Shown: positions 3,431 through 5,294 of the stretch, piece after piece
How positions within the stretch are numbered: position 1 is the first letter of the stretch
Layout: each line of letters opens with the position of its first letter
NCBI GenBank assembly: GCA_020348865.1
Contig: CP070754.1
Location: forward strand, 1,164,529 to 1,206,954
DNA length: 42,426 bases
Direction: 5' to 3'
From: Candidatus Bathyarchaeota archaeon
GTDB lineage: Archaea > Thermoproteota > Bathyarchaeia > Bathyarchaeales > Bathyarchaeaceae
Position numbers and translations under genes: made by a program
Notes under the pieces: generated by a model
Seen by the model: only the letters and a program-made list of their open reading frames with translations
The model's database searches: none
Told to the model about the DNA's origin: nothing

Positions 3431-3746
3431 TGGGCTCCTGATATCAAAAGGTTTCCGAATTTCTCCTCCATCAATGCGTCTCCTTCAAGCATCTTGCAAC
3501 CGATATTTGGTAAGGGAAATGATCAGAGAGTCAAATAATCATGTTACTGGAGGAAGGCGGACTCGAACAATCAGAAACGGGGAACCACGATTTGCCAAAG
3601 ACATGAGACTAGTAGCAACAGACCAAACCACGAAAGATGCCTATGATCTTGTAGAAGATTTAGAAGTGAATACTGGATTTCACCATTACTGCGACCAAAC
3701 TTTAAATATCGCTGCAAAGTGTCAGATTAATCGGCGCCGCTGTGAA
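3431..3746. other. 316-base gap upstream of the split tRNA: promoter region, no gene recognised
   Basis: A weak open frame crosses this stretch but runs straight through the tRNA gene and has no recognisable domain, so I treat it as non-coding. The right end contains the TATA box of the tRNA and a short leader beginning near 3731. The remainder shows nothing I can name. Confidence 0.5.
3701..3708 (+). promoter_or_regulatory. TATA box for tRNA-Asn
   Basis: TTTAAATA at 3701-3708 is the only good TATA element before the tRNA. The usual archaeal spacing of about 25 bases puts the start of transcription near 3731-3733, giving a leader of about 14 bases before the mature 5' end at 3747. Confidence 0.6.
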
Positions 3747-3754
3747 GCCGCCGT

Positions 3755-3778
3755 ACACGCAACACAAACGTGGGCGAA
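3755..3778 (+). other. tRNA intron 1 (24 bases, position 8/9)
   Basis: A full bulge-helix-bulge is visible. The central 4-bp helix is CGCC (3749-3752) with GGCG (3773-3776). The bulges are GTA (3753-3755) and AAA (3777-3779), and the inner helix is CACG (3756-3759) with CGTG (3769-3772). Cutting between bases 2 and 3 of each bulge restores T8-A9. Confidence 0.88.
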
Positions 3779-3801
3779 AGCTCAGTTAGGTAGAGCAACT
3801 G

Positions 3802-3832
3802 ACTTTGATAGACATCTCTATCAGAGGTTGAA
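3802..3832 (+). other. tRNA intron 2 (31 bases, position 30/31)
   Basis: The central helix CAAC (3796-3799) pairs with GTTG (3827-3830). The bulges are TGA (3800-3802) and AAG (3831-3833). The inner hairpin has nine pairs (3803-3811 with 3818-3826, one G-U). Removal joins G30 to G31, giving a perfect anticodon stem; any other register leaves an A-C mismatch. Confidence 0.88.
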
Positions 3833-3861
3833 GCTGTTAACCAGTGGGTCGACGGTCCGAA

Positions 3862-3885
3862 CGTGTAGCACCAAATCACCGGAAA
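3862..3885 (+). other. tRNA intron 3 (24 bases, position 59/60)
   Basis: The outer helix is the T stem itself (3851-3855 with 3887-3891). The central helix is TCCG (3856-3859) with CGGA (3880-3883). The bulges are AAC (3860-3862) and AAT (3884-3886), and the inner helix is GTG/CAC (3863-3865 with 3877-3879). Removal gives T-loop TCCGAAT. Confidence 0.88.
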
Positions 3886-3911
3886 TCCGTCCGGCGGCGC
3901 CAAGATTATGT

Positions 3912-4115
3912 TCATTCAGCTCTTGCCAGCACCAAAATAACGCCGACCGCTATCAATGCGAGACCAGCTACCAGAAAGATGCCAGCGAAAGGCTCAACGT
4001 ATCCCGAAGGAGGGCTAGTATATGTGAAGTAGATGGTTGTCACGCCTATAAGGATGACTATTAATCCCGAGAGTTTCTCAGCGATGGTCAATCCAGTGCC
4101 AATCTCTTCACTCAT
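3912..4115 (-). CDS. Small two-helix membrane protein, 67 aa
   Basis: I do not recognise a named family. After a short polar N-terminus there are two hydrophobic segments (about residues 14-32 and 43-63) separated by a proline/glycine-containing loop with an acidic residue. The C-terminus ends a few residues after the second helix. The composition is clearly that of a membrane protein and not of a chance frame. Its stop codon lies only 10 bases from the encoded CCA of the tRNA on the other strand, so the two transcripts converge. Both termini are predicted to be on the same side of the membrane. Confidence 0.7.
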   Translation of the reverse strand: MSEEIGTGLTIAEKLSGLIVILIGVTTIYFTYTSPPSGYVEPFAGIFLVAGLALIAVGVILVLARAE

Positions 4116-4199: not shown

Positions 4200-5294
4200 C
4201 TAAGATGCCGCCTCTTTCAGTTTCGCAGGGAGGTATTTGTCAACTATATAGGTTAGTCCATATCTGCTGAACGCTTCTTGTTCTGACTTCTTCCTGATTT
4301 TCAGGAATTTCTTTACCTCTCTCTGCCAAAGCTTTCCTCTATAACGAGGATCCCTCTGCAATTCGTGTAGACGTTTGATATCTATGCTAGTCAACGGATC
4401 ACTCGGTAGCTTATAGTTCACAATGTCAGTTGCCCACATTCCACTCCAAGTGGCATCGGGAGTAGTCAACTCTCTGAGATGGGCCGCATTCGCCGATCCT
4501 GAGATAATAACCATGGCAATATGCATACCCCACGGATCACCATCGGTGAATATATGTACTGGAAGACCTAACTCACCATTCAGTCTACGAATAAAATGTC
4601 TAGTAGCACGGGGTGATTGCCCAGCTGTAAGCACAAGAAGTGCATTGAATTTCCTGTAAACCTGCTCCTCTATGAAACGTGTGAACAACCCCCCCTTCTC
4701 AATAGCAATGACCATTTTTGCGCTAGTCTTCAGAAATTCAGCGGAAGTGAGCGCTGGACCGATCATCATTCCGTCAGGATGTGATGCCAGGTTTAGCTGC
4801 CTGCCTTCGTAGCCGGGAACCGTGTATCCTATGGTCAAGTCACCAAAGATAGCTGAACGTTCTTCAGGAAAAACGTTGAAGTCCTCTCGGGAGAGACCAG
4901 CCACAGTTTCCAGGTCAGTTATGATATTGTTGGATTCCGGTTGGTTCTTGAATGACATGTCATATGCTTGCGCTGAATAGTACACGTCACGAAGAGTGGA
5001 AGTTTTCCGACTTTGTGCGAGCTCATGGGCGAATCGGGCAGCCCAAACCAGCTGCGTAAGAGGACGGATGTGACGTATGTTGCGCGAACTCCTACGTACA
5101 GCCTTGTCTCCTAGAATGTATTGTCGAACTTCTTGACTGTAGAAGATGTTTTCGATGGATCGACTTGGCATCTTAATCCAAGGGAAAAGGCCTTCTTCCA
5201 TCTGGTCATAGAGCTTCGTTCCGAAGTTTTCTAGGCTGGTTAAAGCTGTTTTCCGTTTCTCCGCAACTGAACTTTCAATCTTTCTCTTTCTCAA
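4200..5294 (-). CDS. top6A: DNA topoisomerase VI subunit A
   Basis: 364 aa, the Spo11-like cutting subunit of the type IIB topoisomerase, which makes and passes double-strand breaks to relax and decatenate DNA. The winged-helix 5Y-CAP domain contains the active-site tyrosine motif RDVYY (Tyr105/106). The Toprim domain shows IEKGG (Glu199 region) and the DGDPWG metal motif (251-256). The usual C-terminal basic region is present and the length is normal. The start overlaps the last 20 bases of the B subunit, which fits translational coupling and equal stoichiometry of the A2B2 enzyme. It is the last gene of the topoisomerase transcript. Confidence 0.97.
   Translation of the reverse strand: MRKRKIESSVAEKRKTALTSLENFGTKLYDQMEEGLFPWIKMPSRSIENIFYSQEVRQYILGDKAVRRSSRNIRHIRPLTQLVWAARFAHELAQSRKTSTLRDVYYSAQAYDMSFKNQPESNNIITDLETVAGLSREDFNVFPEERSAIFGDLTIGYTVPGYEGRQLNLASHPDGMMIGPALTSAEFLKTSAKMVIAIEKGGLFTRFIEEQVYRKFNALLVLTAGQSPRATRHFIRRLNGELGLPVHIFTDGDPWGMHIAMVIISGSANAAHLRELTTPDATWSGMWATDIVNYKLPSDPLTSIDIKRLHELQRDPRYRGKLWQREVKKFLKIRKKSEQEAFSRYGLTYIVDKYLPAKLKEAAS

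Follow-up and report, generated by a model that had tools for sequence, protein, structure and literature searches.

The window analysed here, a 42,426-nt stretch of contig CP070754.1 whose relatives are Candidatus Bathyarchaeota, contains a tRNA-Asn(GUU) gene interrupted by three bulge-helix-bulge (BHB) introns, which we regard with high confidence as a functional gene of this archaeon. We infer its transcription, the cutting and ligation of its transcript, and the beta subunit of the splicing endonuclease. An earlier note on this DNA had proposed such a gene with noncanonical introns at 8/9, 30/31 and 59/60, and both the sequence and the intron boundaries were verified (Table 1). The note had ended the gene at 3902; the tRNA itself ends at 3899 and an encoded CCA follows. 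It had also used FtsZ as a clue to the lineage, but this says little and our taxonomy is taken from the relatives.

Table 1. Anatomy of the tRNA-Asn(GUU) gene and neighbouring features, in window coordinates
Feature	Coordinates	Strand	Remarks
AAACTTTAAATA, probable archaeal BRE/TATA promoter of the tRNA gene	3697..3708	+	putative promoter role
Exon 1, tRNA-Asn positions 1-8	3747..3754	+	
Intron 1 at 8/9, 24 nt, 3-4-3 BHB	3755..3778	+	common to three congeners and other families
Exon 2, tRNA-Asn positions 9-30	3779..3801	+	
Intron 2 at 30/31, 31 nt, 3-4-3 BHB	3802..3832	+	covariation, 38 distinct sequences
Exon 3, tRNA-Asn positions 31-59, anticodon GUU	3833..3861	+	
Intron 3 at 59/60, 24 nt, 3-4-3 BHB	3862..3885	+	none in congeners G001, G002, G003
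Exon 4, tRNA-Asn positions 60-73	3886..3899	+	
Encoded CCA tail	3900..3902	+	also encoded in relatives
DNA topoisomerase VI subunit A gene	4200..5294	-	named from translation; synteny anchor for orthologous tRNA-Asn genes

Removal of all three introns gave the full cloverleaf that had been claimed. The spliced tRNA-Asn(GUU), GCCGCCGUAGCUCAGUUAGGUAGAGCAACUGGCUGUUAACCAGUGGGUCGACGGUCCGAAUCCGUCCGGCGGCG, is 74 nt long and none of its 21 stem pairs is mismatched. Every intron has a complete BHB of the strict 3-4-3 form, again as claimed, with all four central-helix pairs formed and only 3-nt bulges. The outer and inner helices have 3 and 4 pairs in intron 1, 2 and 10 in intron 2, and 5 and 3 in intron 3, respectively. 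All three are thus of the hBHBh' type (4-bp central helix flanked by two bulges of 3 nt, predicted cut behind the second base of the bulge, outer helices of at least 2 pairs). The register of intron 2 proved as well constrained as the earlier note had stated, with a single mismatch-free solution and a mismatch after a 1-base slide. Introns 1 and 3 can be read in two and three registers, each set giving the same mature RNA, and their assignment to 8/9 and 59/60 follows from the BHB geometry, which selects among these equivalent registers. The four exons lie contiguously and in order inside 153 nt, so the gene is neither split nor permuted. In the T loop, UCCGAAU (window 3857), C55 replaces the near-universal U55, the pseudouridine site; C55 is also present in three congeners and several other relatives. 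A 196-aa open frame (window 3474-4064, +) spans the entire tRNA gene and is almost certainly no gene.

We scanned the whole assembly (1,497,384 bases with 98 runs of 100 N, 92% complete) using a purpose-written scanner for cloverleaves with up to three BHB introns at any position. On a score that favours strong BHB motifs, the tRNA-Asn locus ranked first with 39.7, 27 other loci of the genome scored 29-36, and the reversed-sequence control (about 3 Mb; equal-size controls) reached a maximum of 24.4. The cloverleaf subscore alone was 34.9, the level of the genome's best intron-free tRNAs. Weak candidates scoring around 20-25 fall within the reversed-control range and were not counted as real. 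Nor was a second intron of tRNA-Ala(CGC) that the scan placed at 72/73, as its score overlaps the control. ARAGORN run on the window and Rfam at the gathering threshold both missed the tRNA-Asn gene, as is to be expected when three introns interrupt a gene. Since neither detects it, standard annotation can call tRNA-Asn missing, which affects tRNA-based genome quality checks.

The tRNA-Asn gene adjoins the gene for topoisomerase VI subunit A, and this pairing is retained in several relatives. In the congener G002 the mature tRNA-Asn is identical and the 8/9 and 30/31 introns are present, whilst exactly the 24-nt 59/60 intron is missing. Two further congeners, G001 and G003, match G002 in their introns, and the mature sequence of each differs at one or two positions. 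The CAAACTTTAAATA box is retained 5' of tRNA-Asn in all three congeners and is slightly altered in other family members; the spacer between box and gene varies in sequence among relatives whilst the box itself is retained. The tRNA-Asn transcript should be driven by this conserved AAACTTTAAATA box.

Selection on the 30/31 motif was assessed in 38 distinct introns from across the class, trimmed to the motif. We found that 98.2% of cells were paired and that six of the ten pairs had changed on both sides, with 39 cells being double changes. The covariation score of 0.365 exceeded those of all 500 shuffles and of all slid versions. Two of the double-changed pairs link exon with intron in the central helix, where C-A-A-C/G-T-T-G in some genes corresponds to C-A-G-C/G-C-T-G and C-G-G-C/G-C-C-G in others. 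These compensatory exon-intron changes indicate that both the strand and the structure of the motif are maintained. In the 8/9 intron, the inner-helix sequence differs between families with pairing retained. At the level of sequence, the intron boundaries are thus proven by relatives, through the exact absence of the 59/60 intron in congeners and the motif kept by the 38 distinct 30/31 introns.

The intact second tRNA-Asn(GUU) envisaged by the earlier note was looked for, and the 92% complete assembly with its 98 gaps yielded none; exon matches occur at this locus alone. Gaps of this kind could still hide a normal tRNA-Asn and leave the present locus as a decayed pseudogene copy. We consider this very improbable, as no second copy was found in the assembly, the exons contain no mismatch and are identical to the G002 exons, compensatory change maintains the motifs across the class, and synteny and promoter box are conserved. 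It is harder still to credit that any of the inserts arose through faulty sequencing or assembly, or stays in the mature RNA. The 59/60 insert does occur in a single genome among the genus and the sampled rest of the family, but a complete BHB sits precisely at the ends of every insert. Assembly errors do not take the form of a 24-nt insert closing a perfect motif on the T stem, and dozens of genomes have inserts at 8/9 and 30/31 as well.

To place the introns among relatives we surveyed the class with a specific 18-base pattern, which recovered tRNA-Asn in 92 of 257 Bathyarchaeia genomes; the pattern misses genes with introns or other sequence within positions 32-49, and the counts are thus not class-wide frequencies. 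The backward control pattern gave zero matches. Among the 90 resolved loci of the class, 54 carried introns and 36 were intron-free. An intron at 30/31 alone was the most common arrangement among the loci with introns (19 loci), followed by 8/9 with 30/31 (18), 59/60 alone (7), 63/64 alone (4) and 30/31 with 63/64 (2). Three introns were present at four loci, with three different third sites: 59/60 in this genome, 63/64 in G028 and G032, and 49/50 in G031, each in addition to 8/9 and 30/31. For the G031 locus (L204) the scan had placed the third intron at 42/43, which leaves an oversized variable loop; an intron of 30 nt at 49/50 fits better. The 8/9 and 30/31 introns are missing at the same junctions in other members of the class. 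Outside the class, 17 of 20 genomes of the phylum had no tRNA-Asn intron and none of the 20 had one at 8/9 or 30/31.

These comparisons suggest different ages for the three introns. The one at 30/31 occurs widely across the class, where it is probably old. The intron at 8/9 is, among the genomes sampled, found throughout the genus and again in other families. The 59/60 intron was found in none of the congeners or other sampled members of family f1, and its sequence, CGTGTAGCACCAAATCACCGGAAA, has no likeness beyond the motif to the 59/60 introns of family f7, e.g. AATAAGGAGGCAAATCCTGTCGAAAA. An independent recent gain in this lineage is the simplest reading, with the direction of change resting on family and genus groupings and not on a tree. 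A blastn-short search of the assembly with this intron returned nothing longer than 13 nt except itself, and thus no transposed copy. Because close relatives carry different intron sets, tRNA-Asn introns are, as judged from these genomes, being gained and lost within Bathyarchaeia. We lean slightly towards a broader reading, in which the tRNA-Asn gene of Bathyarchaeia acts as a hot spot, gaining BHB introns repeatedly at a small set of recurrent junctions. On this view genes would have come to carry three introns on separate occasions, with the third at 59/60, 49/50 or 63/64, and introns of unrelated sequence would have entered 59/60 independently here and in another family. Together with its congeners lacking the 59/60 intron, the window gene would form a before-and-after pair on the origin of such introns.

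In the proposed splicing pathway, the precursor transcript would fold locally into three BHB motifs. The steps of cutting and ligation follow established archaeal tRNA splicing. The central helix of the 8/9 motif takes acceptor bases 3-6 and the 30/31 motif takes bases 23-28. Each of these motifs is incompatible with the mature acceptor or D stem, and both introns would be cut before those stems close. The 59/60 intron could be removed late since the T stem itself is its outer helix. When the full precursor is folded for minimum energy, the acceptor stem closes in place of the 8/9 motif, which would therefore have to form early or locally. This fold, together with C55 and the structural subunit of EndA not found in the assembly, counts against a functional interrupted gene.

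We also checked the assembly for the splicing enzymes. The RtcB ligase is present (E=2e-173). Of the two endA paralogues that the earlier note would have looked for, the catalytic one was found (G000:C1:388068-388676), with an intron-free tRNA-Cys gene immediately downstream (G000:C1:388068-388855 for the pair). The search did not recover the structural beta subunit from this assembly with its 98 gaps. By sequence the EndA protein is closest to 2cv8, 3p1z and 3ajv, alpha subunits of (alpha-beta)2 enzymes, which we take to be from Sulfolobus tokodaii (2cv8) and Aeropyrum pernix (3p1z, 3ajv). In the alignment with 2cv8 and 3p1z/3ajv, the Tyr/His/Lys region is aligned and the proteins are collinear through the loop GKPIGIPKPK (K-P-K loop). 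By this alignment, a catalytic alpha subunit with the crenarchaeal-specific loop is present. The loop lysine has been reported as required for the broad specificity of the crenarchaeal enzyme (PMC6379350, PMC12397907).

A homomeric EndA of the alpha4 or alpha2 type, working without a beta subunit, could in principle remove the introns, given the single EndA gene in this assembly and three motifs that are all strict 3-4-3. We consider this unlikely. The alpha subunit has its closest matches in heteromeric enzymes, and a second paralogue without the catalytic His occurs in G002, in G003 and in most relatives whose genomes are complete, as expected for the beta (structural) subunit on sequence grounds. 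The syntenic place of this paralogue here is a contig end: in G003 it adjoins genes whose counterparts in this genome end near the gap G000:C1:1051810-1051909. A heteromeric endonuclease, as suggested by the earlier note, is thus plausible for this lineage; its catalytic subunit with the crenarchaeal loop was found, whilst the expected site of the structural subunit lies at a gap. As all motifs are strict 3-4-3, it is the unusual positions of the introns and not the motifs that argue for a broad-specificity enzyme.

The search for other interrupted tRNAs, also proposed earlier, identified a second three-intron gene in the genome. It encodes tRNA-Glu(UUC) (G000:C1 about 114,000-114,145, +), with introns at 10/11 (29 nt, relaxed motif), in the D arm (21 nt) and at 37/38 (19 nt). 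A probable tRNA-Trp gene (G000:C1:513137-513334, -) would have an intron of at least some 100 nt; in archaea, a box C/D guide RNA is frequently found within the intron of tRNA-Trp. Two tRNA fragments were also observed. One (G000:C1:559513-559575, -) is identical to roughly the initial 40 bases of tRNA-Thr(CGU) (gene at 253190-253262) and is possibly an integration scar or attachment site. The other is a 3' fragment of a Gln(CUG)-like tRNA about 3 kb from the intact gene (G000:C1:911107-911126, - and 914324-914423, -) and may mark an integrated element.

With this gene, the Bathyarchaeia, an abundant uncultured archaeal class, join the lineages with heavily interrupted tRNA genes. The series of orthologs supplies clean and unusually clear presence/absence pairs, as needed to test how archaeal tRNA introns arise. 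The mechanism is the known archaeal one, whilst the lineage seems unreported for heavily interrupted tRNA genes: we found no earlier report of tRNA introns of Bathyarchaeia in the open-licence papers searched. According to a 2014 review, multiple-intron tRNAs also occur in Korarchaeum, Methanopyrus, Nanoarchaeum and ARMAN (PMC4033280). In Caldiarchaeum subterraneum, tRNA-Thr(GGU) has one or two introns within one population, a similarly recent gain between near-identical genes (PMC3293823). The Caldiarchaeum gain is however tied to a mobile element and a tRNA fragment, neither of which was seen beside tRNA-Asn here.

The earlier note read the gene as a sign that intron expansion extends beyond Thermoproteales. 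The three-intron genes of Bathyarchaeia bear this out, but such expansion is not new, having been published for Asgard archaea in 2024 and for others. Asgard Atabeyarchaeia and Freyarchaeia have introns in 92-95% of their tRNA genes, over half of these with multiple introns (PMC11291895). They resemble Bathyarchaeia in combining an expansion outside Thermoproteales with several noncanonical introns per gene, and differ in belonging to another superphylum and in their much higher intron density; no comparison of orthologs site by site was seen in the passages of that work consulted. Three-intron tRNA genes are known from Thermoproteales (PMC4390854, PMC8450103), where, as cited from Sugahara 2008 in PMC4390854, they include tRNA-Glu(UUC) of Pyrobaculum calidifontis and tRNA-Pro(UGG) of P. 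islandicum. Those genes, too, are interrupted at noncanonical sites by as many as three BHB introns. By contrast, the gene described here belongs to Bathyarchaeia, encodes another isotype and combines the sites 8/9, 30/31 and 59/60.
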